A stretch of 36,849 nt of DNA from a virus. The notes beneath the pieces were generated by a model. It did no database searches. It was not told where the DNA came from and saw only the letters and a list, made by a program, of their open reading frames with translations. Within the stretch, counting starts at the first letter, position 1. Every line of letters begins with the position of its first letter. Positions 12,579 to 36,697 of the stretch are shown piece after piece. The stretch lies in IMG/VR virus record IMGVR_UViG_3300047510_002736, positions 1-36,849 of that record, one strand, 5' to 3'. A program made the position numbers and the translations under genes.

Positions 12579-14480
12579 ATGTCTAAGATCATCGGTATTG
12601 ACCTCGGCACCACCAATTCCTGCGTGGCTATCGTCGAGAATGGAACTTCCAAAGTTATTGAAAATTCAGAAGGTACTCGTACTACACCTAGTATCGTTGC
12701 CTATGCCAACGACGAAATCCTTGTAGGTGCATCGGCGAAAAGACAGTCGATCACTAACCCCAAAAATACAATTTATGCAGCCAAGCGATTGATTGGACGT
12801 AAGTTTAAAGAACAGGCTGTACAAAAAGACATCGACCTGATGCCATACGAAATTATGGAAAGTAAAAACGGCGATGCATGGGTTAGAGCACAGGGCAAAG
12901 AATTGGCACCTCCACAGATTTCTGCAGAAGTTCTTCGTAAAATGAAAAAGACCGCAGAAGATTATCTTGGTCAAGAAGTAACTAAAGCAGTGATCACTGT
13001 GCCTGCTTACTTTAACGATCAACAACGTCAAGCAACCAAAGATGCGGGACAGATCGCAGGTTTAGAAGTTCTGCGTATCATCAACGAACCAACAGCGGCT
13101 GCATTGGCCTATGGTGTTGATAAGCAAGATAAAGCTGACAGAAAAATTGCTGTTTACGATCTTGGTGGCGGTACTTTCGATGTATCGATCATTGAAATCG
13201 CGAATGTAGATGGCGACAAACAAATTGAAGTATTGTCAACGAATGGCGACACATTCCTAGGTGGTGAAGACTTCGATCAACGCATTATGGACTACTTGGT
13301 CGAGGAGTTCAAGAAAGAACAAGGCGTTGATTTAACTAAAGATGTATTAGCTCTTCAGCGTTTAAAAGACTCTGCTGAAAAAGCCAAAATTGAATTATCA
13401 AACAGCACACAGACAGAAGTTAACTTACCTTACATCACAGCCGATGCAAGTGGTCCTAAGCATCTAGTAGTAAAATTAACAAAGGCAAAATTAGAAAGCC
13501 TGGTCGAAGATCTTATTAATCGTTCACTGGCTCCTTGCCGCATCGCTATGCAAGACGCAGGTGTTACTGCTGCTGACATTGACGAAGTTATTCTTGTTGG
13601 CGGTCAGACACGTATGCCTAAAGTGCAAGAAGAAGTTGAGAAACTTTTCGGTAAGGCACCACGCAAAGATGTAAACCCAGACGAAGCAGTAGCAGTTGGT
13701 GCTGCTATCCAAGGTGCTGTGTTGGGCGGCGATCGCAATGACGTATTGTTACTTGACGTTACTCCTCTAAGTTTAGGTATCGAAACGTTAGGCGGAGTAA
13801 TGACTAAACTGGTTCAAAAGAACACTACGATTCCTACCAAAGCAAGTCAGACATTCAGCACGGCTGAAGATAATCAGCCTGCCGTGACTATCAAAGTGGT
13901 CCAGGGAGAAAGAGAACTCGTTCAACACAATAAACTGTTAGGCGAATTCAATCTAGAAGGCATTGCTCCGGCCCGTAGAGGACTTCCGCAGATCGAAGTT
14001 ACTTTCGATGTTGATGCCAATGGCATCATGAATATCTCTGCCAAAGATAAAAATACAGGCAAAGAAAATAAGATCACCATCAAGTCTGATTCCGGTCTAA
14101 GCAAAGAACAAATTGAACAAATGATTCGAGATGCTGAGATTAATGCCGAAGCAGATAAGAAAGCTAGAGAACTAATCGATACTAAGAATTCAGCTGAAGC
14201 TCAGATGCACGAAGTTAAAAAAGATCTTGAAGAGTATCGTAGCGAACTTACTGAAGATGAAGTTAAGCAACTTGAGGATGTTATCAATGCTGTTGGAGAA
14301 GCCACAAAGGGCGACGACAAAGATAAGATCACAGAAGAACTTAACAAAGTTTATCCGGCAATGAAAACTCTGTTAGAAAAAAAGCAGGCTAAAGAAAGTC
14401 AGCCAGCTCAAGAAGCAACCGGCAATAATCCATCCGATGATAACGTAGTAGATGCTACGTTTACAGAAAAGAAGGAATAA
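12579..14480 (+). CDS. dnaK: chaperone DnaK (Hsp70)
   Basis: The 633-residue product is a complete Hsp70. The ATPase domain has [18 protein letters not shown] (3-20), [49 protein letters not shown] and [14 protein letters not shown]. The substrate domain starts [14 protein letters not shown] (about 390), and the helical lid ends [14 protein letters not shown]. No frameshift or missing motif is seen, and the length matches E. coli DnaK (638). It folds and protects proteins with DnaJ and GrpE, which are not in the window, so host co-chaperones would serve. Sequence similarity to host DnaK looks high, indicating acquisition from a bacterium. It leads a stress unit with a small phage protein and Hsp20. 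Confidence 0.98.
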
Positions 14481-14482
14481 AA

Positions 14483-14674
14483 ATGGCTGAGGCAGGTAAA
14501 GGTAGTAGACCGCGTCCATATAGCGTCGATAAAAAAACTTTCGATTCTAATTGGGATACTGTCTTTAGAAAACAAGAACAATCTGTAATTGAAGAAGTTT
14601 CTAAACTTATAGCAGAAGAAACTCTTCAAGAAACAGAAAACAGAATTACAGATCACTCGGGTGAGGGTCAGTAA
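14483..14674 (+). CDS. small conserved phage protein (63 aa)
   Basis: It starts MAEAGKGSRPRPYSVDKKTFDSNWDTVF, the GKGS-x-PRP-(F/Y)-SV...F-x-x-NWD-x-(I/V)-F pattern that recurs in many aquatic tailed phages. The C-terminal half is a Glu-rich helix. Two bases separate it from the dnaK stop, so it is co-transcribed. Function unknown. Its presence between dnaK and hsp20 shows that the chaperone genes are embedded in phage sequence rather than being a contaminating bacterial block. Confidence 0.8.
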   Translation: MAEAGKGSRPRPYSVDKKTFDSNWDTVFRKQEQSVIEEVSKLIAEETLQETENRITDHSGEGQ

Positions 14675-14675
14675 T

Positions 14676-14714
14676 AGGGCATAGAGCCCAGTTCATCTTA
14701 CTTTATAAGGAGAT
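14676..14714 (+). promoter_or_regulatory. hsp20 leader, second copy of the dnaK ribosome-binding-site hairpin
   Basis: This 39-base stretch repeats the dnaK leader: the same GGGC-ATAGA-GCCC hairpin, six or seven divergent bases, then the identical 20 bases atcttactttataaggagat. In both copies AAGGAG ends 6 bases before the ATG. Selection or gene conversion seems to hold the element constant while its surroundings differ. Confidence 0.7.
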
Positions 14715-14718
14715 TATT

Positions 14719-15156
14719 ATGAACAATCAACTAGCAAGACTAGACGCCATTAATAGAGCACTTATTGGTTTCGACACTATGTTTGACCAAATGGAAAGAC
14801 GATTCGCTAACAGCGTTTCTAACAATTATCCCCCACACAACATTCTCAAAACTGGTGAGAATCAGTATGAGATTCAAATCGCTGTTACTGGTTTCAAGAA
14901 AGACGAAATCAATGTAACCGTAGAAGACAACGTGCTGATCATCAAAGGCGAAAGTCAAACATCAAATGAAAGCACTGATATGGTATACATACATCGAGGT
15001 CTAGCTACTCGTGATTTTGTTAAGGAATTTCCTTTAGCAGAATATATTGAGGTAGTTGGTGCAGAAACACAAAATGGTATGCTTTCTATCAAATTGGTAA
15101 GAAATATTCCAGAGTCTGCCAAACCTAAGGTAATCGATATCGTAGAGGTTAAGTAA
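14719..15156 (+). CDS. small heat-shock protein Hsp20 (IbpA-like)
   Basis: The 145-residue protein has an alpha-crystallin domain: NQYEIQIAVTGFKKDEINVTVEDNVLIIKGES, YIHRGLATRDFVKEFPLAEYIEVVGAETQNGMLSIKL, and the C-terminal IPESAKPKVIDI, close to the IbpA-type IPE-x-x-KP-(R/K)-x-I-x-I signature. The N-terminal FDTMFDQMERRFA is also IbpA-like. It is an ATP-independent holdase that passes clients to DnaK. T4-like phages of cyanobacteria and SAR11 often carry an Hsp20. It shares a duplicated leader with dnaK, implying joint control. Confidence 0.95.
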   Translation: MNNQLARLDAINRALIGFDTMFDQMERRFANSVSNNYPPHNILKTGENQYEIQIAVTGFKKDEINVTVEDNVLIIKGESQTSNESTDMVYIHRGLATRDFVKEFPLAEYIEVVGAETQNGMLSIKLVRNIPESAKPKVIDIVEVK

Positions 15157-15186
15157 TATTAGTGGGGGAGAAATCCCCTACTATTA
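15154..15186 (+). promoter_or_regulatory. hairpin between hsp20 and clpS
   Basis: GGGG and CCCC (around 15163-15178) pair across GAGAAAT, flanked by further complementary TAGT/ACTA and TAATA/TATTA with small bulges. No T run follows, so it is probably not a terminator. It sits just before the CCGGAG binding site of clpS and may protect the upstream mRNA or tune clpS translation. Confidence 0.45.
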
Positions 15187-15198
15187 CCGGAGCAACTA

Positions 15199-15498
15199 AT
15201 GAGCACAGAAATCAAAACAGAAGAAAAAGTTAAAGTTAATCTGCAACCTCCATCTTTATGGAAAGTAGTATTTTTAAATGACGATCAAACACCTATGGAA
15301 TTCGTCATTGAGTTGTTAACTTCGATTTTTAAACATAGAGAAGATACTGCTAAAGATCTCACTCTAGAAATACACAACACTGGCTCCGCTGTAGTAGGTG
15401 TTTTTAATTACGAAATAGCTGAGCACAAATCAGTAGAATCTACTAAACTTTCTAGATTGAACGGATTTCCGTTACAGATTAATTTAGAAAGAGAATGA
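15199..15498 (+). CDS. clpS: ClpS, N-degron adaptor of ClpAP
   Basis: The 99-residue product aligns with ClpS over its whole length: WKVVFLNDDQTPMEFVIELLTSIF, then LEIHNTGSAVVGVFNYEIAEHKS. The NDD of the N-degron pocket, the TPMEFV gate segment and the conserved His of LEIHNTG are all present. ClpS binds proteins with N-terminal Leu, Phe, Tyr or Trp and delivers them to ClpA. Neither ClpA nor ClpX is in the window. With phage ClpP and tmRNA it could redirect host proteolysis. It overlaps the next gene as ATGA. Confidence 0.95.
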   Translation: MSTEIKTEEKVKVNLQPPSLWKVVFLNDDQTPMEFVIELLTSIFKHREDTAKDLTLEIHNTGSAVVGVFNYEIAEHKSVESTKLSRLNGFPLQINLERE

Positions 15499-15771: not shown

Positions 15772-16311
15772 ATGAGCTTACGAGAAATAACTAAAGATTT
15801 ACATTCAGATGCAGAACGTACAGAGTTTGCTAAAAAACTTTTAAGCGGATCTATATCTAAAGAGGACTACGCCAACTACCTATGGCAAATGGTTTTGGTT
15901 TATCAACCTATCGAAATGGGTAACAAAATACTAGGTAATTTTGCCAGCCTCCCGGACATTGAAAGGACCTGGCCGATCTATCAAGATTTTATCGAACTAG
16001 CTGGAAAAGATCACGATTTTAAATGGTTACCGTCTACTATCGGATACCATAATTATCTGTTAGAACTGATCAATGACCCAGAAAGAAAACATCTTATCAA
16101 GGCACATCTTTATTGTCGTCATATGGGAGATCTATATGGCGGCCAAATGATTGCCAAACGTGTACCTGGACAAGGACGTTTTTACAAGTTTAAAGATCCA
16201 GAAAAACTCAAGGAACAGATACGTGCAGAGCTAACAGATGACTTAGGTGACGAAGCTCGTGTAGCCTTTGAATGGGCAATAAAAATTATGCAAGATTTGA
16301 ATAAGGAATAA
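15772..16311 (+). CDS. heme oxygenase
   Basis: The 179-residue protein starts [22 protein letters not shown], matching the proximal-His helix of HO-1-type enzymes (His11). It carries [17 protein letters not shown], the GDL-x-GG distal-helix signature. It is a single-domain soluble enzyme that would open heme to biliverdin IXalpha, CO and iron. In cyanophages the homologous ho1 sits beside bilin reductase genes. Here a bilin reductase lies one gene downstream, supporting the biliverdin route. Length is somewhat short compared with cyanobacterial HO1 (about 240) but the core helices are all present. Electrons would come from host or phage ferredoxin, not seen in this window. Confidence 0.92.
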
Positions 16312-17599: not shown

Positions 17600-18277
17600 A
17601 TGTCTGCGGTATGGTCGAAACTGATAGAGATACAGAATCTATTAACTAAAAAATTTAACGAATCTGGGATCGAATCATTTGAACCAGGGATGGAACGTTT
17701 CAATCAGCCGGGTTGGGTAAACAGGGTATGGACTAGTGGTAATTATCGTAGAGCTCACATTGACGTAGTCGATGCCCGATCCACAAAGGGCCTCTGGATG
17801 ATGCACTGTTGTGTATTTCCTCATATCCATAACCCGGCGCCCATTTTTGGTTTTGATGTTATCGCAGGAAAAAATAAGATCACAGGCTGTTTCATAGATT
17901 ATAGTCCAACCACAGATCGTAATCACCCTATGAATCAATACTTCGCCGAAGAAGTCAGTAGATACGATTGGATCAAAAAACGAGATCTTCCAGATTGGGC
18001 ACAGCGTATTTTTAGTTCAAATATGGTAGCTGCTGGAAATGTCAGCGACGAGTCTGAATTATCTCAAATTGAAAGTCTAGCACATATACTAATAAACCAT
18101 TACGTAGAAACAGTAGGAGAAACCAATAATAAAGTAGCAGATGCTACTTTTGAGCAAAACTATTACGCTCAAAATCAAAAAATGAATCCACATACTCCTA
18201 AAGTTATGGCTAGTTTAGGTTTAAATCAGGAAGATGTAAGGATTTTCATACAGGACTGCCTTTTTCCTGAAATTTAG
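17600..18277 (+). CDS. ferredoxin-dependent bilin reductase (PcyA/PcyX-like)
   Basis: The 225-residue protein has the bilin reductase core: RAHIDVVDARSTKGLWMMHCCVFPHIHNPAPIFGFDVIAGKNKITGCFIDYSP. His69 and Asp86 are 17 residues apart, as are the catalytic His88 and Asp105 of cyanobacterial PcyA, so they probably correspond. FxxN(M)...YVETV and YYAQNQKMNPHTPKVMASLG fit the C-terminal half. These enzymes reduce biliverdin to phycobilins with ferredoxin electrons. Whether this one makes phycocyanobilin or phycoerythrobilin (as I recall for phage PcyX) cannot be read from sequence. The window has no phycobiliprotein or phytochrome gene, so the acceptor of the pigment is unknown. Confidence 0.88.
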   Translation: MSAVWSKLIEIQNLLTKKFNESGIESFEPGMERFNQPGWVNRVWTSGNYRRAHIDVVDARSTKGLWMMHCCVFPHIHNPAPIFGFDVIAGKNKITGCFIDYSPTTDRNHPMNQYFAEEVSRYDWIKKRDLPDWAQRIFSSNMVAAGNVSDESELSQIESLAHILINHYVETVGETNNKVADATFEQNYYAQNQKMNPHTPKVMASLGLNQEDVRIFIQDCLFPEI

Positions 18278-18302
18278 TAAAAACGCTATATAAATAGCAT
18301 AA

Positions 18303-18729: not shown

Positions 18730-19188
18730 ATGAAGAAAACGTTAGTATCTTTAGGGATATTTTTATCCTTATCGACGGCAAGTCAGTCTGCTGAACTTGT
18801 CCATCAATTCAACAGTCCATCATTTTCTGGAGTAGGATATTCCAGTCATGCATTGACCATTTACGGTCAAGAACTCAGTCGTAAATTAGCTATTGCTGCA
18901 GAAAAAAAAGCAGATGCTTTAAAAGCAGAACAAGATGCTAAAAATACGACTATGGCCAAATTCGTTGCAAACTTAGAAAGTCGTGTTTATAACGAATTAG
19001 CAAGACAAATCACTGAAAAATTATTTGAGGGGCAAGGCACCCAAGCATCCGGAACATTTGCGTTCAACGGTGGTACAATTACCTACACCAAGGCAGGTAG
19101 TCTGATAGAGATTACCATAAGAGATGAAAACGGAAATGTAACAACAATGACAGTACCAATTGGAGATTTCGGATGGCTAGCACCTTAA
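18730..19188 (+). CDS. csgF: CsgF-like curli assembly factor
   Basis: The 152-residue product has a signal peptide (MKKTLVSLGIFLSLSTASQSA) and then LVHQFNSPSFSGVGYSSHALTIYGQE, which corresponds to the CsgF N-terminal segment LVYxFxNPSFGGNP that plugs the CsgG pore. The middle is a helix (about residues 45-95) and the end is beta-rich with FNGGTITYTKAGSLIEITIRDENG, as in CsgF. In curli, CsgF links the pore to the nucleator at the cell surface. It overlaps csgG by 16 bases, as expected for partners. Confidence 0.88.
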   Translation: MKKTLVSLGIFLSLSTASQSAELVHQFNSPSFSGVGYSSHALTIYGQELSRKLAIAAEKKADALKAEQDAKNTTMAKFVANLESRVYNELARQITEKLFEGQGTQASGTFAFNGGTITYTKAGSLIEITIRDENGNVTTMTVPIGDFGWLAP

Positions 19189-20090
19189 TTAAATTAACAC
19201 CCCTGGCTTTGGCATTATTTTTAGCAGGTTGCGGAACAGTAGGTAATGCTGTTCGTAGCTTCGATGATCCCAAAGTAACAAAACCAGCTCTTAAAGCTGA
19301 ATCAAATCTAAAAGAACCTCAAAGCGGATCTATACCTGTAGCAGTCTATAATTTTAGAGATATGACTGGCCAACGTAAGGCTAGTCAAAATATCGCAAGT
19401 CTAAGCTCTGCTGTGACTCAAGGAGCAGATGCATACCTTGTGAAAAGTCTACAGGAAGTAGGCAGCGGTAAATGGTTTAAAGTTCTCGAAAGAGGCGGAT
19501 TAGATAATCTTATCAAAGAAAGACAACTAATACGTCAGATGAGAGAACTGTATCAAGGTGATAAAGCACAACCTTTACCACCTATGTTGTTCGCTGGAAT
19601 GATACTCGAAGGTGGTATCATAGGCTATGATAGTAACACAATGAGTGGTGGTTCCGGAGCTAGATTATTAGGCATTGGGGCTAGCACAGAATACAGACAA
19701 GACGAAGTTACAATTAGTCTTAGAGCAGTATCAGTATCTACCGGTGAAGTACTAACTGTAGTTAATATTTCTAAGAGTGTTTACAGTTTCCAAGACAAGG
19801 CTGGTGTTTTAAGATTTTATGAAGCAGGCACTAAAGCATTAGAATTAGAAACAGGATCTGCCACGAACGAATCAATGAATAAGGCTATTCAATTAGCGAT
19901 TCATGCAGCAGTGATAGAATTGATTCGTGAGGGAGAAAAGAAAGGCCATTGGTCTTATAAATCAGAGGAGAAAAAAGATGAGTTGGTTCAAAAAAACACC
20001 ACATCCAAAATCGAATCCGAAGCGACACCCCCAGTACCTAAGTCCGATGACGGAAAAAATACTGGAGGAGAATCAGTTAAAACAAAATAA
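19173..20090 (+). CDS. csgG: CsgG-like outer-membrane curli secretion channel (lipoprotein)
   Basis: The 305-residue product has a lipoprotein signal with LFLAGCGT and modified Cys20. CsgG hallmarks follow: SIPVAVYNFRDMTGQRKA, LVKSLQEVGSGKWFKVLERGGLDNLIKERQLIRQ, PPMLFAGMILEGGIIGYDSNTMSGGSGARLLGIGASTEYRQDEVTISLRAVSVSTGEVL. CsgG forms a nonameric beta-barrel through which unfolded curlin leaves the cell. The constriction-forming and transmembrane hairpins are covered by this sequence, so the protein looks functional. A Lys/Ser-rich tail of about 40 residues is additional to E. coli CsgG (277 residues). Confidence 0.95.
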   Translation: MASTLIKLTPLALALFLAGCGTVGNAVRSFDDPKVTKPALKAESNLKEPQSGSIPVAVYNFRDMTGQRKASQNIASLSSAVTQGADAYLVKSLQEVGSGKWFKVLERGGLDNLIKERQLIRQMRELYQGDKAQPLPPMLFAGMILEGGIIGYDSNTMSGGSGARLLGIGASTEYRQDEVTISLRAVSVSTGEVLTVVNISKSVYSFQDKAGVLRFYEAGTKALELETGSATNESMNKAIQLAIHAAVIELIREGEKKGHWSYKSEEKKDELVQKNTTSKIESEATPPVPKSDDGKNTGGESVKTK

Positions 20091-20106
20091 AAAGAACCAA
20101 ATAGGG

Positions 20107-20134
20107 TTGGATTCTTTAAAAAATAAGGTACAAT
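20107..20134 (+). promoter_or_regulatory. weak promoter before the first curlin gene
   Basis: TTGGAT (20107-20112) and TACAAT (20129-20134) are 16 bp apart in the gap between csgG and the curlin gene. They match the consensus at four and five positions. A separate start here would allow curlin to be made in excess of the secretion parts. Confidence 0.45.
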
Positions 20135-20164
20135 AATAACAATAACAGTACCAAGGAGCGAAAA

Positions 20165-20848
20165 ATGATTAAAAATAATTATGGTAAAATGGCCTTCATT
20201 ATGGCGGCTATGTTTTGGGGTTCAGGAGCATACGCTAACAACACAGTTTATATAGAACAAGCAGGTAGTTCTAACACTGTAACAATTACTCAGGTAGGCA
20301 GCACCAACCGAGTAGGAAACAGCGGTCTTAATAACCAAAGTAAAATAACCGGAAGCACAAACACATTAACAGCCAGTCAAACTGGCGATGGCAACATCAT
20401 AGATTATACTGTAGTAGGTAATGGTAATACGATTACAAAAACTGTCACAGGTGATACTAATCAAATAACCTTTACCTGTGGCGATGGTACCACAGCCTGT
20501 ACCAACGTAACTAGCACTATGACAATCGCTGGAGACAGCAATACTGTTACTAGCACAATAAAAGGAAGTAGCATTGCAAATACGTTGAGTATTACTGGAG
20601 ATAACAATACTGTTACACAGTCTATATTAACAAATAATTCTACCAGCAGTATCACTATCCTAGGAGACAGCAATACATTCACTAGCTCTATGGCAGGAGC
20701 CAGTGCAGGTCTAGGACATTCATTAATGGCTGCTGTAACTGGAACTTCTAACACACATTCTGTGACACAGAGCGGATCAGTTAATACAACAGTAAACATA
20801 GTCACAACTGGTAACAGCAATGCTGTAACTGTAACCACAGGAAACTAA
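20165..20848 (+). CDS. curlin-like amyloid repeat protein
   Basis: The 227-residue protein has a signal peptide ending in GAYA and then a series of curlin-type repeats of about 20-25 residues, such as NTVYIEQAGSSNTVTITQVGSTN and GDGNIIDYTVVGNGNTITKTV. The recurring N-(T/x)-(V/I)-x-x-x-(Q/x)-x-G-x-x-N spacing fits curlin repeats, although some Gln positions are replaced by Thr or Ser. It is almost free of charged residues, as expected for an extracellular amyloid subunit. One repeat has a pair of cysteines (FTCGDGTTACTN), unusual for CsgA. It is the probable substrate of the CsgG/CsgF pore and overlaps the FecR gene by TAATG. Confidence 0.85.
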   Translation: MIKNNYGKMAFIMAAMFWGSGAYANNTVYIEQAGSSNTVTITQVGSTNRVGNSGLNNQSKITGSTNTLTASQTGDGNIIDYTVVGNGNTITKTVTGDTNQITFTCGDGTTACTNVTSTMTIAGDSNTVTSTIKGSSIANTLSITGDNNTVTQSILTNNSTSSITILGDSNTFTSSMAGASAGLGHSLMAAVTGTSNTHSVTQSGSVNTTVNIVTTGNSNAVTVTTGN

Positions 20849-21948
20849 TGAAACATTTATGGCTGGTTCTATTATTGATTGCATCTGGGGCTCAAGCCAA
20901 CATAGGCAAAATAACTGAGCTCCAGGGCACAGCCGTTGAAATTAAAAGAGGTAGTAAATCTATCAAAGCATCGAAAGATTCTGTGATAGAATCAAATGAC
21001 ACTGTCAGTGTCGGATCAAATACAAAACTCACGATCACTTTTTCAGATAACAGCACAGCAAAAATAACTGAAAACAGTAAACTTATTATAGATGACTTTG
21101 TCTATGATCCTAAAGGCGGAGCTTCTAAGAGTTCTATGAAAGTGGCGTTAGGGACAGTCCGAATGGCTTCGGGTGCTATAGCTAAAAATTCTGCTCAGAA
21201 CGTTAATATAAAAACTCCAACAGCCGCCATAGCTGTGAGAGGAACAGACTTTGCCATGACCGTAGACGAACTTGGTAGAAGCACTGTAGTACTATTACCT
21301 AGTTGTAAAGACGATCGTGATGCACAACGGGTGGAATTACCAGGAAACTGTGTATGTGGTGCTATAGATGTAACTACTACTGCAGGAAAAGTCAGTATGG
21401 ATAGTCCATTTTTAGCTACCTATGCTGTTAGTCATCAAGAATCTCCTTTGCCCCCTGTTCAAGTTGATCCTAGCGTGATGAATGCCTACGGTGAAGGATC
21501 ATTAAAGAAACCCGAGCAGGTAGTTAAAGCTGTTGCCGAAAGAGATCAAAAGAAAGAAGAACGAAAAGATAGGAGTCGTGCTAACGATGACGAAAGAAAA
21601 GCAGCGAGAGATAACAATGACGAAGTGGCACGAAAAGATAGAGAAGGCAATTCGGACAGGAATATACAAAGAGCACTATCTGGGGAAATAGGAACAACAA
21701 AGGTTGGGTCTACTGAACAGACAGCAGGCAATCCTTGTTGGCCATTTACCAGTTGCGGAAATGAAAAAGGATATAATTGGTACGAACACGTTGATCCTTT
21801 AAGAGGTAATGTGATACACATTAGATCATTAGAAACTACTGACACAACTACCTATAACATTTCAGTCAACAATGTTGACGTTAGTCAACGTCAAGTCGGT
21901 AGCGGTGCTAATGGTAACGTAGTGACGGTAAGACAATGGAACAGATAA
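20848..21948 (+). CDS. exported FecR-domain protein
   Basis: The 366-residue product has a signal peptide (cleavage near QANIG) and a FecR domain at about residues 20-145: GKITELQGTAVEIKRG, NDTVSVGSNTKLTITFSDNSTAKITENSKLIID, GTVRMASGAIAKNSAQNVNIKTPTAAIAVRGTDFAM. The GT(D/E)F segment is typical of the periplasmic FecR fold. A region with clustered cysteines (SCKDDRD...GNCVCG) and a highly charged Arg/Lys/Asp/Glu linker (about 220-285) follow. FecR proteins sense or scaffold in the periplasm; in bacteria they are often neighbours of CHASE2 cyclases, one of which lies at 25006. Confidence 0.85.
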   Translation: MKHLWLVLLLIASGAQANIGKITELQGTAVEIKRGSKSIKASKDSVIESNDTVSVGSNTKLTITFSDNSTAKITENSKLIIDDFVYDPKGGASKSSMKVALGTVRMASGAIAKNSAQNVNIKTPTAAIAVRGTDFAMTVDELGRSTVVLLPSCKDDRDAQRVELPGNCVCGAIDVTTTAGKVSMDSPFLATYAVSHQESPLPPVQVDPSVMNAYGEGSLKKPEQVVKAVAERDQKKEERKDRSRANDDERKAARDNNDEVARKDREGNSDRNIQRALSGEIGTTKVGSTEQTAGNPCWPFTSCGNEKGYNWYEHVDPLRGNVIHIRSLETTDTTTYNISVNNVDVSQRQVGSGANGNVVTVRQWNR

Positions 21949-23870
21949 AAAAACTTTTATTTCTTATTTTAATTTTTTTGTCTACGACAGTTCGCGCAGA
22001 CCTAACTGATATCAAATTTGGACAATATCAAATTGCAGACAGTCAATGGAATGTTAACTCGTGTCTGAATACTACCACCTGCCAAATTTATAGCAAACAG
22101 CCAGGTACGGCCTACAAGATACCCTGGACTTCAGGTCAAGTGCAATGGGCTTCTGGTGACTATGTAAAGTTTGAATTGAGTGGAAACAGTTCGTATCCTT
22201 ATACAGCAAAACAATATGACAGCGCAGGCAATGTTAAATCTACACTAGGTAACGGTAAGATCGTTAATATGGGTCCTGACTATTTTTTCTTTGTAGGCAG
22301 TGACAATAACACAGGACAACTGTTTAGCGGTAGTAGTGGTATGAGTGGAACATCGGGTGTGTCTTGGACTGGTACCCTTAACCCTACAATCGCTCAGGCC
22401 AACACCTATGCCGATGCAACTTACTCTACAGTTCCTTTGAGTTCAGGTCAAACTGCTACCGTTACACCAAGTTCTCAAACATCAACACCGACATCTTCCA
22501 GCGGACCTGTAAGTCCTAACACCAACAACCCTAATTTAGGTTTTGAATCAGGAACTACTGCTAACTGGACTATCAGTAACGGTACAGGCACAGAAAAAAC
22601 CTCAGGCTGGAGCGATAACGGCGACGGTGTTAATACATCAAAAGGAATGACAAATTATCAACCTGGCGGCGGCAAGTCTTGGTCAGTTACGCCATACGGA
22701 ACGTATATGATGGTCATTCAAGCCGGTGGTGACAGTCCTAATTTTGATCCTGCTATGACCTCATTAGGATTAACTACAACAGAAATAACTAACATTAGAA
22801 ATTATCTTACTGGATTAGGAGGCAACAGCTCACCTACTAATGCTTCGTGGGCTAAACGAACTGTTGCACTTGAATCAGGTAAAACATATGTCATCGCTTG
22901 GCAATATATGAGTACGGACTATACACCATTTAATGATGGAAGTATTATGACTTTAATTCATTCTAGTGACCCGACAAAAATACCTGTGTTAAACAACGAA
23001 ACTAAGAGATATGCATTATTAGGATTTACCAATCCCGGAACAGGAAACTATGCCACAGACAGTTATGGATCAACAGGTTGGCAGTTAGCGACCATTACTG
23101 TTCCAGTAAGCGGAGATTACATATTAGGATTCTCAAGTTTTAATCTTGGAGACACAGCATTGAGTCCTATTTTGTTAGTCGACGATTTACAAGGTTCTAC
23201 TACCCTTAACGGACAAACCTTTGGACCTATCGCACCTAACGCTGGATCGAGTGCTCCTACTACAGGAGGATCAACTGCGCCAGCGTGTCCTAATAGTTCA
23301 ACTTGCTCTACAGATGCGTTTGCTGCCAATACAGGATTTGCCAATAGAGCCAATATATGGTCACAGCAAAACGGAAATAGAGTTATTGTAGAACAGATAG
23401 GAAGCTATAATGTTGCCACAGTTCAACAGACAGGCAATAAAAATTATGCAGAAATTGATCTTACAGGATCAAATAATACAACTACTATAACACAATCTTC
23501 ATCCGGGGCTACCACTACTAATTATATAGAATTAACTATTTCTGGAAATGGCAATACTACAAATTTAACTCAATCCGGAACCGGTGGTGCTAAAGGTATA
23601 TTAGCTACAGTGAATAATGCATCAAATAGTTTAACCGTAAATCAAAGTGGTACTGGAAATCATTATTCTGAAATTTCTCTCAGCGGCGGTACCAAGACTG
23701 TTGACATTACACAGACTGGCTCTGTAGGTCATATGGCTAATATTACATTGACCGGTGGGGCTACTTCAATTACCGCTACGCAAACAGGCGGCACTCAACA
23801 GTTTTACTCTATAACACATAACTGTGCTCAGGCCAGTTGTGCAGCCATTACTGTAACACAAGGGCAATAA
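21936..23870 (+). CDS. large exported protein with C-terminal curlin repeats
   Basis: The 644-residue product has a signal peptide ending VRA. The N-terminal 150 residues are a beta-rich domain (IKFGQYQIADSQWNVNSC...). A Ser/Thr/Pro-rich linker (about 170-195) leads to a jelly-roll-like domain starting NPNLGFESGTTANWTISNG and ending ILLVDDLQG, a pattern typical of carbohydrate-binding or PEP-CTERM-type modules. After a second linker with cysteines (CPNSSTCS), the last 160 residues contain curlin repeats such as NRVIVEQIGSYNVATVQQTGNKN. A binding domain fused to an amyloid domain suggests an adhesive tip or minor fibre subunit. Confidence 0.82.
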   Translation: MEQIKKLLFLILIFLSTTVRADLTDIKFGQYQIADSQWNVNSCLNTTTCQIYSKQPGTAYKIPWTSGQVQWASGDYVKFELSGNSSYPYTAKQYDSAGNVKSTLGNGKIVNMGPDYFFFVGSDNNTGQLFSGSSGMSGTSGVSWTGTLNPTIAQANTYADATYSTVPLSSGQTATVTPSSQTSTPTSSSGPVSPNTNNPNLGFESGTTANWTISNGTGTEKTSGWSDNGDGVNTSKGMTNYQPGGGKSWSVTPYGTYMMVIQAGGDSPNFDPAMTSLGLTTTEITNIRNYLTGLGGNSSPTNASWAKRTVALESGKTYVIAWQYMSTDYTPFNDGSIMTLIHSSDPTKIPVLNNETKRYALLGFTNPGTGNYATDSYGSTGWQLATITVPVSGDYILGFSSFNLGDTALSPILLVDDLQGSTTLNGQTFGPIAPNAGSSAPTTGGSTAPACPNSSTCSTDAFAANTGFANRANIWSQQNGNRVIVEQIGSYNVATVQQTGNKNYAEIDLTGSNNTTTITQSSSGATTTNYIELTISGNGNTTNLTQSGTGGAKGILATVNNASNSLTVNQSGTGNHYSEISLSGGTKTVDITQTGSVGHMANITLTGGATSITATQTGGTQQFYSITHNCAQASCAAITVTQGQ

Positions 23871-23892: not shown

Positions 23893-24192
23893 ATGATGCG
23901 TACAGTAATCGTGGCGTTCCTATTCTGCTTATACAGCGTAGCCAACGCCGAACCGTTTGAAAGTCGTAAACCCGTGCTCTGCGATAATGTACAGACACTG
24001 ATCAGAAGCTTGATAGAGAACTATAATGAAAAGCCTATTTGGGCTGCGAAGAATCCTATAGACGATACAAAATTCGCACTATTTGTTAACTCTAAAACAA
24101 AAAACTGGACACTATTACAAATGACTTCGGAAATCGCTTGCATTATCGGCGTCGGCGACGAGTCTACACTTATGCTTGGTGATCCTGTTTAA
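23893..24192 (+). CDS. small exported protein of unknown function
   Basis: AAGGAG ends 6 bases before ATG 23893. The 99-residue product has a signal peptide cleaved near ANAEP, followed by a short mature domain with two cysteines (LCDNVQTL and EIACIIG). The arrangement AKNPIDDTKFALFVNSKTKNWTLLQMT resembles small periplasmic proteins encoded by marine phages. It ends inside the convergent TerC gene (23-bp overlap), so the two mRNAs are antisense at their 3' ends. Confidence 0.75.
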   Translation: MMRTVIVAFLFCLYSVANAEPFESRKPVLCDNVQTLIRSLIENYNEKPIWAAKNPIDDTKFALFVNSKTKNWTLLQMTSEIACIIGVGDESTLMLGDPV

Positions 24193-25005: not shown

Positions 25006-27057
25006 ATGAAGAAATTGTTTTTAAACCCCTGGACTGCTCTAGTTACTTTAACTGTAGTGGTATTAATAAGATTATTTGATCCTGCATTTGTTGAAAGTGT
25101 AAGATTAAGATATTTTGATCAATTGATCGTCAGCGAACCTAAAAAAGAAGTTCCTGTTCATATCGTTAACATAGATGAAGCTGCTCTTGAAAAATATGGA
25201 CAATGGCCTTTTCCTAGAGGACAATACGCAGACATAATCAACGATCTATATAAACGTGAAGCAGGATTGGTAGTGTTCAACGTTTTAATGCCAGAACGAG
25301 ATCGATTCAATCAAGATTCGGTATTAGCACAATCGATGAAAAAACATCCTGTGGTTATACCTTCATTAGGACATACTAAAAGTAGGAATACTGATTTCGG
25401 CAGCAGTGTTCAAATAGTTGGCCAGGATCCTTCCGGAAAAGTAGTACAATATCCGGGATTGATAAACAGTGTTGACTCTATCAACGAATTAGCTATAGGT
25501 ATAGGTATAGTTAATACTTTTCCTGAAATAGATGGTGTTGTTCGTAGAATGCCATTGGTGATAGCAGCAGGTGAACACGTTCATCCTAGCCTAGGATTAG
25601 AAACACTAAGAGCTGCTTCTGAAGATCGAATACAGGTAAAGATAGGAGACACAGGAGTTGAAGCATTAAGAATTCCTAAACTAGGAAAAATCGAAACAGA
25701 CAACCTAGCTAGAATATGGATAGACTGGTCTAGTCAGCCTACTGAACATAGTCTTGTATCTTTGCCTAAAAGTTTTAATAACGGTATAGTGATTGTTGGA
25801 CTCAGTGCCGCTGGCCTTGCAAATCCCGTAGGTACTGCTGCAGGCGAAGTATGGCCGCATTATCTGCAAGGTGCGGTGATAGGTACTATGATGACCAAGA
25901 CCAATATACAACGTCCTAGTTACGCAGATGATTTAGAGTTAGTCGTTTTATTATTAGCAGGTATAGCATTATTATTTTTAACAAGGTGGACTTATGTTGG
26001 AATTTTTAGCGGTGTTGTTATTATTGGGGGCATCTTTGGTGTTTCTCAATATCTGTATTCATCTAATCTTTGGCTCTTCGACAGCACTTTACCTGTATTT
26101 GGGCTCACTGTTGTCATGCTTCACGCTTATGGCGTTAAATTTATAAGTGAGTTTTTACAAAAGCAACAGATCAGAAAGCAGTTCCAAAGTTACCTCAGTC
26201 CCGACCTTGTTGCTAAACTGATCAAAGATCCTAGTCTATTAAAACTGGGTGGCGAAGAAAAAGAACTGAGTATTATGTTTACCGATGTTCGCGGCTTTAC
26301 CAGTATCTCAGAATATTACGGTAAAGACGTACAAGGTTTAACAAAGATTATGAATCGTTATATGACTGCGATGACACGTACTATTCTAGAAACGGGTGGC
26401 ACCCTAGACAAGTACATTGGCGATGCACAGATGGCTTTCTGGAATGCACCGCTAGACGAAACTAAGCATTGTAAAGATGCTGTCAAAGCCGCATTAGAAA
26501 TGTTAGGGAGCTTAGATGAATTCAACAAAGAAATTACCTCTGAAGGCACACCTCCTTTTGGTATGGGTATTGGTATCAACACCGGTGTGGTTGTGGTCGG
26601 TAACATGGGATCTGAGCAACGCTTTGACTATACCTGTCTTGGTGATTCAGTTAATCTTGCTAGTCGCTTGGAGGGACAGAGTAAGAACTATGGAGTACTC
26701 ATTGTACTTGGACCAGTTACGGCAGAAAGAGTTGGAGAAGATTACTTTACAATTGAACTCGACTGCATCGCAGTCAAAGGTAAAAAAGAAGGTGTAACGA
26801 TCTACACAGTATTTTTCAACCCTGCAGAAAATCAAATGGCAGAATGGAAACACGATAGAGAGTTGCACGATCTAATGTTAGAGTATTATCGTAAGCAACA
26901 ATGGGATAAGGCCATTGCACTTATTGAAACACTGAAAGGCAAATTTGGCAGTGGTATGGATCACTATTACGAATTGTGGTTAGAAAGAATAGAAGAAATG
27001 CGTAATGCCCGTTTACCTACAGATTGGGATGGTGTATTCCGTGCAACATCTAAATGA
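25006..27057 (+). CDS. CHASE2-domain class III adenylate cyclase
   Basis: The 683-residue protein has an N-terminal membrane segment and a CHASE2 sensory domain with DQLIVSEPKKEVPVHIVNIDEAALEKYGQWPFPRGQYADII. Three further membrane helices lie near residues 305-385, and the class III cyclase domain starts about 420: IMFTDVRGFTSISE (first metal Asp), LDKYIGDAQMAFWNAP (second metal Asp), GIGINTGVVVVGNMGS and DSVNLASRLE (Asn/Arg transition-state pair). All catalytic residues look intact, predicting cAMP synthesis. A helical tail of about 70 residues follows. The extracytoplasmic sensor faces the periplasm, where the FecR and curli proteins also act. cAMP signalling by a phage is unusual. Confidence 0.92.
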   Translation: MKKLFLNPWTALVTLTVVVLIRLFDPAFVESVRLRYFDQLIVSEPKKEVPVHIVNIDEAALEKYGQWPFPRGQYADIINDLYKREAGLVVFNVLMPERDRFNQDSVLAQSMKKHPVVIPSLGHTKSRNTDFGSSVQIVGQDPSGKVVQYPGLINSVDSINELAIGIGIVNTFPEIDGVVRRMPLVIAAGEHVHPSLGLETLRAASEDRIQVKIGDTGVEALRIPKLGKIETDNLARIWIDWSSQPTEHSLVSLPKSFNNGIVIVGLSAAGLANPVGTAAGEVWPHYLQGAVIGTMMTKTNIQRPSYADDLELVVLLLAGIALLFLTRWTYVGIFSGVVIIGGIFGVSQYLYSSNLWLFDSTLPVFGLTVVMLHAYGVKFISEFLQKQQIRKQFQSYLSPDLVAKLIKDPSLLKLGGEEKELSIMFTDVRGFTSISEYYGKDVQGLTKIMNRYMTAMTRTILETGGTLDKYIGDAQMAFWNAPLDETKHCKDAVKAALEMLGSLDEFNKEITSEGTPPFGMGIGINTGVVVVGNMGSEQRFDYTCLGDSVNLASRLEGQSKNYGVLIVLGPVTAERVGEDYFTIELDCIAVKGKKEGVTIYTVFFNPAENQMAEWKHDRELHDLMLEYYRKQQWDKAIALIETLKGKFGSGMDHYYELWLERIEEMRNARLPTDWDGVFRATSK

Positions 27058-27214
27058 AGATATATGTTTTTGGTGGGTTGATCTATATGTGTATTCTATG
27101 TTACAATTGTACTTTACTCCTTTTTATATGATGGGTAAAGGCAGCGAAACAGAACAATGGATCAGCCAATTTAGTACTAACGGCATTAAACCATTTAACT
27201 TATGCAGACCATGA
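27041..27214 (+). CDS. small hydrophobic protein overlapping the cyclase end
   Basis: A GTG start at 27041 (weak GGGATGG upstream) gives 57 residues beginning VQHLNEDICFWWVDLYVYSM followed by LQLYFTPFYMMGKGSETEQWI. The aromatic-rich helix suggests membrane association. It overlaps the cyclase by 17 bases and the carboxypeptidase by 13 bases, the spacing typical of this genome, and otherwise fills a 144-base gap. No family recognised. Longer frame-compatible starts at 27005 or 27029 would lie deeper in the cyclase gene. Confidence 0.5.
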   Translation: MQHLNEDICFWWVDLYVYSMLQLYFTPFYMMGKGSETEQWISQFSTNGIKPFNLCRP

Positions 27215-27930
27215 TCAGATCAATATTATTTTTTATTTTATTCTCAACGCCGTTATTAGTACTTGCCAACGATCACAAAATTACCGCAACTTCTTGGCTA
27301 GTCGCCGACGGTGAAGGTGAAATACTGCAAAGTGAAAATATGTATGAACATCGCAGTATCGCTAGCATCACAAAACTTATGACCGCTATGGTTGTTCTCG
27401 ATGCTCACCAAAATCTAGATGAATACATAAAGCCTTATACAAGACGTGAGTTATTACAACTGGCTATTGTACATTCTGATAACAGAGCATCGGAGACTCT
27501 ATGTCAAAAATACCCCGGAGGTAGATTAGCCTGTATAAAGGCCATGAATGAAAAGGCTCGTAATCTCGGGATGTTAGATACACGCTTTATTGATCCAACC
27601 GGTCTCGGGGTAATGAATTCGAGTACTGCCTACGATCTAATTAAAATGGTCAGAGCTGCAGAACTATATCCCGAAATCACAGCCGCTAGTAAAATGAGCG
27701 AAGTTAAGATCAAACACAAAAAGAAATTCGTAGTTTTCAGAAACACCAATCCTATCATAGGTAAGCGTCATGATTTTATCGTCAGCAAAACCGGCTACAT
27801 AAGAGCAGCCGGCGGATGTATTGTAATGATGCTAGATACAAGTTTTGGTAGAAGGATAGTTGTGTTATTGGGCAGCAAAAATACCAAAACCAGGATTCCT
27901 GAAGCGGAATTTATAGCTTTAAGAACTTAA
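27202..27930 (+). CDS. D-alanyl-D-alanine carboxypeptidase (peptidase S11, DacA-like)
   Basis: The 242-residue product has a signal peptide (residues 1-22) and the penicillin-binding triad: Ser55-x-x-Lys58 in IASITKLM, Ser92-Asp-Asn94 in VHSDNRASE, and KTG in IVSKTGYIRAAGG. It trims or cuts peptidoglycan peptides in the periplasm. At 242 residues it lacks the C-terminal beta domain and membrane anchor of DacA, so it is the compact PbpG-like endopeptidase/carboxypeptidase form. A role in lysis, in blocking superinfection or in wall remodelling for curli export is possible. It overlaps the convergent membrane-protein operon by 4 bases. Confidence 0.9.
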   Translation: MQTMIRSILFFILFSTPLLVLANDHKITATSWLVADGEGEILQSENMYEHRSIASITKLMTAMVVLDAHQNLDEYIKPYTRRELLQLAIVHSDNRASETLCQKYPGGRLACIKAMNEKARNLGMLDTRFIDPTGLGVMNSSTAYDLIKMVRAAELYPEITAASKMSEVKIKHKKKFVVFRNTNPIIGKRHDFIVSKTGYIRAAGGCIVMMLDTSFGRRIVVLLGSKNTKTRIPEAEFIALRT

Positions 27931-33715: not shown

Positions 33716-33769
33716 ACAGACACTATAATAAAACAAATGATAAGTAATAGTGAATCCAGGGGAATTAAT

Positions 33770-34330
33770 GTGTCCAAAAAATTCGACGATTTCAACGCCG
33801 ATGATCGTATTGCGGTAAAACTTCTAGAAAACAGCATCTTTTATCTCTACGGAGAAATCGATGAAGAAAATATCGCAAACTGCGTCAAATGGATACTCTA
33901 CGAAAATCAAGATCCGAAAGAAAAGATCCTAACCCTGTATATCAATTCTATGGGCGGAGATCTTTACGGTGCGTTTGCTCTGATTGATATGATCAAAAAT
34001 AGCCAACATCCGGTAAGAACGATCGCTATAGGATCTGCTATGAGTGCCGCGTTCCTTATATTTGCCGCAGGACATAATGGCGAGAGATATGCTGCAAAAA
34101 ATTGTAGTTTTATGTGTCATCAATATTCTGACAGTGTATCGGGAAAACATCACGATCTAAAGGCCACTATGAGAGACGGCGAACTCTGTAATCAGCGAAT
34201 GATCGATATCCTCAAACAGGCCACAGGAATGCCGCCTAGTAGAATCAAATCAAAATTGTTGCCCGCATCTGATGTATATCTCACTGCAGAAGAATGTGTC
34301 GAGCTGGGCGTGGCAGATCATTTGACATAA
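33770..34330 (+). CDS. clpP: ClpP-like ATP-dependent protease subunit
   Basis: GTG 33770 is preferred because AGGGGAA lies 5-6 bases before it; ATG 33737 is an in-frame alternative with no binding site. From the GTG the product has 186 residues. Ser92 in GSAMSAAF and His117 in FMCHQYSD are 25 apart, as in E. coli ClpP (Ser97/His122), and the acidic residue of ASDVYLTAEEC completes the triad. NSMGGDLYGAFALIDMI forms the handle region. It can act as the proteolytic chamber with host ClpA or ClpX. As a phage enzyme it could also process virion proteins. It complements ClpS (15199) and the tmRNA. Confidence 0.9.
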   Translation: MSKKFDDFNADDRIAVKLLENSIFYLYGEIDEENIANCVKWILYENQDPKEKILTLYINSMGGDLYGAFALIDMIKNSQHPVRTIAIGSAMSAAFLIFAAGHNGERYAAKNCSFMCHQYSDSVSGKHHDLKATMRDGELCNQRMIDILKQATGMPPSRIKSKLLPASDVYLTAEECVELGVADHLT

Positions 34331-35411: not shown

Positions 35412-35500
35412 GGAAGTGTGTGCTGAATTGGTTGAAGGCAACGGACTGTAAATCCGCCACATAAGAAACATTGTAGGTTCGAATCCTACCACTTCCACCA
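35412..35500 (+). tRNA. tRNA-Tyr (GTA)
   Basis: GGAAGTG pairs with CACTTCC, and CCA is encoded. The anticodon loop reads ACTGTAAAT with GTA. A long variable arm and the T-arm GTAGG-TTCGAAT-CCTAC fit a class II tRNA-Tyr of 89 bases. Confidence 0.95.
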
Positions 35501-35708
35501 GTTCCGGTTACTACTTTCCTTAAAGTAGCGTTTGATTAGCGTGAGAGATCCGGTGGCAGAAAACCGTAAGCGTGAGGATGGAAACTACCCTTACAGACTC
35601 TGATAGGCAGAAGCTCAACTGCACACAGACAGCGAATAAATGGAGATGGACAGAGTAACAGCTCAGTAAGGGGTTTGAGTGGAAAACAAGTAGCCTTACA
35701 CGAATTTA
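35501..35708 (+). ncRNA. candidate structured RNA between tRNA-Tyr and tRNA-Asp
   Basis: No gene is visible in 208 bases. CTACTTT-CCTT-AAAGTAG (35511-35528) is a perfect hairpin; GTAAG/CTTAC (35566-35570 with 35590-35594) and GTAAGG/CCTTAC (35666-35671 with 35694-35699) close two more loops. The base composition is purine-rich with GNRA-like loops. I do not recognise a family; group I intron, RNase P and 6S patterns were not apparent. Confidence 0.45.
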
Positions 35709-35783
35709 GGTCTCAAGGTGTTCATGGACGCATACCGGCTTGTCACGCCGAAGGAGGGGGATCGTTACCCCCTGGGACCGCCA
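35709..35783 (+). tRNA. tRNA-Asp (GTC)
   Basis: GGTCTCA pairs with TGGGACC (one G-U), with discriminator G and encoded CCA, as expected for Asp. The anticodon loop TTGTCAC gives GTC. Oddities: a C-A mismatch at the base of the anticodon stem and a T-loop reading ATCGTTA instead of TTCRAxx, so it may be divergent or partly degenerate. Confidence 0.75.
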
Positions 35784-35791
35784 AAGTTTAT

Positions 35792-35868
35792 TCCCTGATA
35801 GCTCAGTTGGTAGAAGCACTTGACTGTTAATCAAGGTGTCGCAGGTTCGAGCCCTGCTCGGGGAGCCA
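35792..35868 (+). tRNA. tRNA-Asn (GTT)
   Basis: TCCCTGA pairs with TCGGGGA, followed by GCCA. The D-arm AGCTCAGTTGGTAGA, anticodon GTT and T-arm GCAGG-TTCGAGC-CCTGC are all canonical. Confidence 0.95.
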
Positions 35869-35873
35869 GATAT

Positions 35874-35948
35874 GCACCGTTCGTCTATCGGTTAGGACGC
35901 TGCCCTTTCAAGGCGGAAAGAGGGGTTCGATTCCCCTACGGTGTACCA
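35874..35948 (+). tRNA. tRNA-Glu (TTC)
   Basis: GCACCGT pairs with ACGGTGT, followed by ACCA. The anticodon loop CTTTCAA gives TTC, and the T-arm is GGGG-TTCGATT-CCCC. Five bases separate it from tRNA-Asn. Confidence 0.93.
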
Positions 35949-35956
35949 GATTTTAT

Positions 35957-36048
35957 GCCTCTGTAGTTTAATGGTAAAACAGCGGATTTATATCCCGTGT
36001 GCAACAGATAATTGGCCAATGTGGGTTCGACTCCCGCCGGAGGCACCA
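35957..36048 (+). tRNA. tRNA, probably Ile (TAT), with an oversized variable region
   Basis: GCCTCTG pairs with CGGAGGC, CCA is encoded, and the D-stem GTTT/AAAC and T-arm GTGGG-TTCGACT-CCCGC are good. The loop TTTATAT gives anticodon TAT (codon AUA). The anticodon stem has an A-C mismatch beside the loop, and the variable region is 22 bases, including the palindrome ATTGGCCAAT. A long variable arm is not expected of tRNA-Ile, so identity is uncertain. Confidence 0.65.
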
Positions 36049-36054
36049 ATAAAT

Positions 36055-36129
36055 GTATCCCTAGTGTTAACGGCAGCACGACAGTCTCCAAAACTGCTAG
36101 TGGGGGTTCGAATCCCTCGGGGTACGCCA
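36055..36129 (+). tRNA. tRNA-Trp (CCA)
   Basis: GTATCCC pairs with GGGGTAC, followed by GCCA. The anticodon stem CAGTC/ACTG and loop give CCA; the T-arm is GGGGG-TTCGAAT-CCCTC. Confidence 0.93.
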
Positions 36130-36135
36130 AATGAT

Positions 36136-36213
36136 GTGAGGATGGCAGAGAGGCCCAATGCAACAGTCTGCAAAACTGTAAAGCCGTCGGTTCGAATCCG
36201 ACTCCTCACTCCA
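36136..36213 (+). tRNA. tRNA-Cys (GCA)
   Basis: GTGAGGA pairs perfectly with TCCTCAC, followed by T and encoded CCA. The anticodon loop in ACAGTCTGCAAAACTGT gives GCA. T-arm GTCGG-TTCGAAT-CCGAC. Confidence 0.93.
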
Positions 36214-36217
36214 GATT

Positions 36218-36298
36218 GCCCCTATGGCCAAATAGGTAAAGGCGGCTCTCTCAAAAGGAGTGTCATAACTATCGGTTCGAATCCGATTAGGGGCACCA
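36218..36298 (+). tRNA. tRNA-Leu (CAA)
   Basis: GCCCCTA pairs with TAGGGGC, followed by ACCA. The loop CTCAAAA gives anticodon CAA. The variable region is only about 9 bases, short for Leu, and the T-arm is ATCGG-TTCGAAT-CCGAT. Confidence 0.88.
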
Positions 36299-36306
36299 AA
36301 GATTAA

Positions 36307-36396
36307 GGAAGTGTGGCAGAGTCCGGTTTATTGCACCTGTCTTGAAAACAGACGGCTCGAAAGGGTCCGTGAGTTCGAATCTCACCGCTTCCACCA
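36307..36396 (+). tRNA. tRNA-Ser (TGA)
   Basis: GGAAGTG pairs with CGCTTCC (one G-U), CCA encoded. The loop CTTGAAA gives TGA; a long variable arm (CGGCTCGAAAGGGTCCG) and the T-arm GTGAG-TTCGAAT-CTCAC fit tRNA-Ser. Confidence 0.95.
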
Positions 36397-36399
36397 AGT

Positions 36400-36615
36400 T
36401 TTGTTAAAGTGTCAGCAAGAGAATGTCACGCTATCTAGGTAAGTTCGAACTACCGAAATAGTAGAAGGGGACGGGTTCAACTCCCGACCGATCGGAAGAT
36501 CGGTGCAGTATGGTTGCTAACTGGATGAGTATCCCAAGTGACTTACCGAGTCCTGCCCGGGCTAGTTAATCCAGGTGAATGGTGTCGATAACGATGGCGG
36601 CACTACTTTAACAAA
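36400..36615 (+). ncRNA. candidate structured RNA bounded by an 11-bp inverted repeat, with a T-arm-like hairpin
   Basis: TTTGTTAAAGT (36400-36410) is perfectly complementary to ACTTTAACAAA (36605-36615), closing about 216 bases that hold no gene. Inside are CGGG-TTCAACT-CCCG, which matches a tRNA T-arm in stem and loop, CCGATC-GGAA-GATCGG directly after it, and the palindromes GTTCGAAC and GCCCGGGC. No acceptor stem or CCA goes with the T-arm, so it is not a standard tRNA. Confidence 0.55.
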
Positions 36616-36623
36616 TTCAATAT

Positions 36624-36697
36624 GCCCGGATAGTTAAATGGTATAACGGTCGCTTGATAAGCGATTATTACAAGTTCAATTCTTGTTCTGGGCACCA
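36624..36697 (+). tRNA. tRNA-Ile (GAT)
   Basis: GCCCGGA pairs with TCTGGGC (one G-U), followed by ACCA. The anticodon stem GTCGC/GCGAT and loop TTGATAA give GAT. T-arm ACAAG-TTCAATT-CTTGT. Confidence 0.93.

Follow-up and report, generated by a model that had tools for sequence, protein, structure and literature searches.

Our combined findings suggest that the phage DNA analyzed here carries a complete, conserved curli secretion module of the alphaproteobacterial type and a sensor pair, consisting of a FecR-domain protein and a CHASE2 adenylate cyclase, in one operon-like unit, and that cells infected by such phages probably display adhesive amyloid. The window, by which we mean the whole stretch of DNA analyzed, is the 36,849-base IMG/VR record IMGVR_UViG_3300047510_002736 (positions 1 to 36,849), which is a fragment. 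No structural hallmark gene was identified within the window, and its viral status rests on the IMG/VR classification and on synteny with longer records. Phage curli genes were first reported in PMC7029224, and a full type VIII secretion module of pelagiphages, including FecR and cyclase, was described in PMC9599517 with a proposed alphaproteobacterial origin. The mention, in a preliminary description of this DNA, of curli-like genes in SAR11 myophages therefore has a real precedent. In the publications found, viral curli genes come from marine SAR11 and OM43 phages, with csgGF also mentioned in sediment temperate viruses (PMC9636769); the articles on large or freshwater phages that were examined in full text say nothing about curli. 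The phages studied here are an additional, large-phage group.

The preliminary description proposed an ordered phage curli, or type VIII secretion, operon of four genes. All four lie on the plus strand, in the order and at the positions it gave, and exceed the Pfam cut-off: the secreted pore partner CsgF (18730..19188; PF10614, E 2e-17), the outer-membrane pore lipoprotein CsgG (19173..20090; PF03783, E 5e-52), the CsgA/B-like curlin 1 (227 aa, 20165..20848; PF07012, E 2e-5) and curlin 2 (644 aa, 21936..23870; PF07012, E 5e-9). The operon was incomplete in its extent, however, since two further plus-strand genes were missed, one coding for a FecR-domain protein of 366 aa with a signal peptide (20848..21948; PF04773, E 4e-12) and the other for a CHASE2-class III adenylate cyclase of 683 aa (25006..27057; PF05226, E 4e-35 and PF00211, E 9e-21). 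The csgF and csgG genes overlap by 16 bases and the FecR start overlaps the curlin 1 stop codon, a pattern expected of a single operon. Between curlin 2 and the cyclase lie an inverted TerC gene and a plus-strand gene for a predicted small secreted protein of 99 aa (23893..24192), recognized as an open reading frame and by its conservation. The 99-aa protein had no family match, its gene keeps its position in relatives, and its membership in the module is uncertain. Ahead of csgF is a DUF3307 gene, and before both it and the curli genes lies a T4 late-promoter-like TATAAATA (18289..18296, plus strand). This is a weak lead, as the element precedes the operon only in the window and close relatives of it, and lies within 200 bases of csgF in just one of 61 loci. 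As a sign of late expression it was rejected, the window having no more copies of TATAAATA than shuffled sequences; consensus promoter sites were fewer than in shuffles.

We sought relatives of the module in IMG/VR. A search with CsgG gave 15 loci and a search with FecR gave 351 stretches, of which the best 80 were kept, comprising 62 distinct FecR loci. Synteny in related phages, a check that the preliminary description had put forward, was upheld: within the best 80 of 351 stretches, all 58 distinct loci with enough upstream sequence have CsgF, CsgG and curlin, in this order, ahead of FecR. Of the 30 distinct loci from the same best 80 of 351 that extend far enough downstream, 29 have the cyclase within 8 kb of FecR, three times on the opposite strand; in the thirtieth, L096, it is cut off by the contig end. 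Most module genes had dN/dS values of 0.05-0.12 relative to relatives L004 and L015, with several dS values near saturation, and curlin 2 had a value of 0.29 relative to L015, from which it differs in its N-terminal modules. The gene module is thus not a chance assembly and is under purifying selection. In the relatives, the module has a common flank with genes for DnaK, Hsp20, ClpS, heme oxygenase and bilin reductase, and five long related records (215-372 kb) code for a T4-type Gp23 major capsid protein. The records represent larger phages, a group distinct from the pelagiphages. One gene of these loci considered as PhoH proved to be IMP dehydrogenase/GMP reductase. That the six-gene set recurs in an additional phage group, with FecR in every case and the cyclase in almost every case, indicates selection for secretion together with sensing rather than a leftover pore.

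The secretion part has the hallmarks of a curli pore. The mature N-terminus of the window CsgF carries an FxNPxF-type motif, here QFNSPSF, as do all 64 distinct viral CsgF proteins. The window CsgG matches E. coli CsgG structures (E 1e-46) and has the lipobox LAGC, with a lipobox in 61 of 68 viral CsgG proteins. Ten residues separate TGQ from SxAV in its constriction loop, as in alphaproteobacterial curli pores. We rejected a special phage-pore constriction, since neither the length nor the residues of the loop stand out from those of bacterial curli pores, and the suggestion that the envelope is perforated found no support, the loop being of the same length as in bacteria. About a third of the distinct viral CsgG proteins (24 of 67) bear a C-terminal extension that matches the tail of L009 with its SH3 domain; CsgG proteins ending in a bacterial SH3 (SH3_3) domain were seen in L009, L011, L012, L049, L085 and others. 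SH3-type domains often bind the cell wall, and such a tail would anchor the pore in the envelope. The window CsgG is without this domain and ends in a charged tail. All secreted parts would be exported by Sec, after which CsgG together with CsgF would form the outer-membrane pore. In searches for csgG genes, that of 'Salmonella phage S.Kent' (L099, OR851715, 1499 bases) was rejected as a phage gene due to its E. coli-type pore loop FKPYPASNF; judged by this E. coli/Salmonella-type sequence, it is most likely host DNA contamination.

As the preliminary description had noted for the window, CsgE seems to be absent: it was not found in any of 15 related records of up to 372 kb, which may be incomplete, using a search for which the E. 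coli control was positive. Absence of this gate fits a proposal that CsgG serves to raise outer-membrane permeability for nutrients, with the repeat proteins playing a minor part (PMC7029224, PMC9599517). However, alphaproteobacterial curli systems are also reported to lack CsgE (PMC9599517), and so it is not needed for membership in that curli subtype. Furthermore, CsgF and curlin are kept in every testable locus (58 of 58, from the best 80 of 351) and are under purifying selection, and we consider uptake a very improbable function.

Another proposal, made for the OM43 phage Melnitz, is that CsgG and CsgF set off lysis as a gated, pinholin-like pore. It was argued from the statement that this phage lacks csgA and csgB (PMC9004378). 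Contrary to that statement, the Melnitz record (MZ577097) has the same six-gene order as the window, with FecR, curlin repeats and the cyclase annotated and two curlin-repeat proteins present. The premise of the lysis-pore proposal is removed by these curlin genes, and both Melnitz and HTVC008M have a pair of curlin-repeat genes as well as FecR and the cyclase beside csgG. The pore loop, moreover, equals those of bacterial curli pores in length. CsgG is an outer-membrane protein, whereas pinholins act by depolarizing the inner membrane. A role in lysis timing is thus improbable.

Curlin 1 has a signal peptide followed by degenerate curlin repeats, a single stretch of which passed the Pfam cut-off, and its repeat pattern is kept across 11 aligned relatives. 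It is likely the fibre backbone, which would exit through the CsgG/CsgF pore and form amyloid on the infected cell. Curlin 2 ends in a curlin solenoid (residues ~481-643) that matches the CsgB model (E 4e-10). Its single-chain AlphaFold model (mean pLDDT 72) begins with an N-terminal beta domain, continues with a middle beta-sandwich and ends in about 14 short strands, the last as would be expected for a curlin solenoid. The jelly-roll-like domain that the preliminary description saw in this protein corresponds to the middle domain, residues ~200-430, which has a moderate fold match (E about 0.001) to the carbohydrate-binding modules CBM61 and CBM16 and to gingipain cleaved-adhesin domains. 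By a simple rule, signal-peptide-like starts were recognized in almost every CsgF, curlin and FecR protein; in the relatives, starts were taken as the first in-frame codon, and the true ones may differ.

The two halves of curlin 2 differ in how they are conserved. Its C-terminal curlin half is matched in 40 of 42 relatives, and individual N-terminal modules in 5-15; the two N-terminal modules of the window recur in 15 and 9 of the 42. Elsewhere they are replaced by F5/8C, PA14, carbohydrate-binding-module-like or other modules. This conservation of the amyloid half combined with shuffling of N-terminal modules between phages is new here, as are the SH3-like domain of many phage CsgG proteins and the reading of FecR as partner of the cyclase. 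A conserved dock with an exchangeable head is a pattern that would suit an adhesin under changing target choice, and the module shuffling lends support to the earlier idea that the second repeat protein is an adhesive subunit. We envisage that curlin 2 would dock through its C-terminal curlin repeats and show a sugar-binding adhesive head, swapped by each phage lineage in the fashion of tail fibres. Shuffled adhesive heads yield a direct prediction of the purpose of the fibre. The infected cell would become sticky toward siblings, particles or matrix, which would help the burst to reach new hosts. A recognized curlin 2 directly follows FecR in 34 of 50 loci (from the best 80 of 351 stretches), and, judging from the other 16, either some phages do without the adhesive head or some heads escaped recognition. 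No clumping was reported in Melnitz-infected cultures (PMC9004378), which counts against adhesive amyloid. Instead of gluing cells, an amyloid coat could block the adsorption of competing phages or hide their receptors, as suggested in PMC9599517. All parts found are compatible with surface display, as such a shield would demand, yet neither shuffled sugar-binding heads nor a cAMP sensor is required for it. We regard superinfection shielding as rather unlikely, while noting that shielding and adhesion are not mutually exclusive.

In the preferred reading, the adhesive amyloid that the infected cell would display is coupled to a cAMP sensor. In the window FecR protein the FecR domain directly follows the signal peptide. 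Its single-chain AlphaFold model (mean pLDDT 75) combines a FecR beta-solenoid with a long charged helix and, at the C-terminus, a beta domain, and its best fold match is the cell-surface signalling domain of PupR (E 5e-5), with further matches to other putative anti-sigma proteins and to the adhesin anchoring domain 5ix9. By eye the C-terminus resembles a curlin repeat; this was rejected, as none of 53 FecR proteins had a Pfam curlin match at E up to 1. On the strength of its name and domain, FecR has been annotated in the literature as an iron-dependent regulator of the module (PMC9599517). FecI/FecR anti-sigma regulators have a cytoplasmic anti-sigma N-terminus, one membrane helix and an adjoining sigma-factor gene, a pattern that the window protein does not match: we found no cytoplasmic anti-sigma N-terminus in it and no sigma-factor gene among its identified neighbours. 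It also shows weak similarity to surface adhesins and the retention module of LapA, and its close partner across loci is the CHASE2 cyclase. Iron regulation is consequently the explanation to which we give hardly any credence.

Proximity of FecR and CHASE2 genes was also seen in bacteria. In alphaproteobacterial genomes, a CHASE2 gene was close to FecR in 9 of 20 regions versus 2 of 20 random regions of the same genomes, a modest difference (p = 0.03), and several FecR domains of these regions head long repeat-bearing, adhesin-like proteins. A Burkholderia biofilm operon, BiofilmReg, likewise pairs a secreted FecR-domain protein with a CHASE2 sensor kinase (PMC5192318). It differs from the window pair in its output, a histidine kinase and response regulator rather than cAMP, in a LysM domain on the FecR protein, and in that no curli genes were described with it. 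Because of the signal peptide, the failure to find an anti-sigma part or sigma gene, the PupR-like fold, the FecR-CHASE2 proximity and the Burkholderia operon, we read FecR and the cyclase as a sensor pair, with FecR as the apparent partner of the CHASE2 cyclase rather than an iron regulator.

The cyclase is predicted to consist of a periplasmic sensor, membrane helices and a cyclase domain. That of the window has the complete class III active-site set (two metal-binding Asp, Lys and Asp for ATP, Asn and Arg), within the stretches FTDVRGFT, LDKYIGDAQM and FDYTCLGDSVNLASRLE. In 33 of 54 typed viral cyclases Ser replaces the active-site Asn, and cyclase activity may therefore vary. Since no cNMP-binding protein, and hence no phage cAMP receptor, was found in 14 phage records, any cAMP would act on a host receptor. 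A periplasmic or surface FecR protein could report the state of the surface to the CHASE2 domain, and the cyclase would then raise cAMP. In its fullest form, this would be a contact-sensing circuit in which the state of an adhesive amyloid with exchangeable sugar-binding heads is read through periplasmic FecR by the CHASE2 cyclase, with cAMP changing upon binding to a cell or surface. We put this circuit forward tentatively and think it unlikely as it stands.

Among known systems, the pelagiphage module (PMC9599517; HTVC008M, KC465899) is like the window in its six core genes, their order (CsgF-CsgG-curlin-FecR-curlin-adenylate cyclase) and the failure to find CsgE. HTVC008M and Melnitz are the nearest isolates, yet the window CsgG is only 46-48% identical to theirs (about 48% to HTVC008M). 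The phages related to the window are larger, with records of up to 372 kb, and the window has the 99-aa gene and inverted TerC before the cyclase. DUF3307 is ahead of csgF in the window, whereas a histidine kinase was reported at this place in pelagiphages (PMC9599517). In four loci, a stand-alone small protein with homology to the CHASE2 cyclase's C-terminal tail is encoded upstream of csgF (L038:7426-7746, L059:6722-7120, L063:7144-7542 and L071:7165-7530), and may be the preceding histidine kinase of the literature.

Only one convincing bacterial chromosome with this arrangement was found among the best 80 bacterial-genome CsgG loci, L105 (Hyphomonas MAG TMED17). Its CsgF-CsgG-curlin-FecR-CHASE2 cyclase genes lie on a 705-kb contig among metabolic neighbours and resemble the phage module, from which they differ in having one large curlin and no second. 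L105 is consistent with the origin in Alphaproteobacteria that PMC9599517 proposed, and can be viewed as a bacterial counterpart of the phage module. Seven further candidates (L100-L102, L109, L112, L118 and L129, labelled 'Rhodobacteraceae Water_Bin34', 'Flavobacteriaceae NAT175', 'Pelagibacter' etc.) were rejected as bacterial operons, as they look like phage contigs binned with bacteria.

Several other genes of the window were recorded. Just upstream of the curli genes are a heme oxygenase (15772-16311) and a PcyA-like ferredoxin-dependent bilin reductase (17600-18277, E 6e-25), with an adenosylhomocysteinase between them; the heme oxygenase and bilin reductase recur in most relatives, linking a phage bilin pathway to curli. 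A proteostasis cluster of DnaK, Hsp20 and ClpS (12579-15498) is kept next to the curli genes, and the window further encodes a ClpP-type protease (33737-34330); such genes may help to fold or clear aggregation-prone curlins. The window also has ten tRNA genes (35412-36697) and a tmRNA of the betaproteobacterial permuted type (1509-1862, in the region 1509-1965; RF01850, 106.9 bits), the latter hinting at a host other than Pelagibacter. Finally, a D-Ala-D-Ala carboxypeptidase-like protein is encoded at 27202-27930 (PF00768, the best stretch missing the first third of the model), and its gene is conserved after the cyclase in many relatives.
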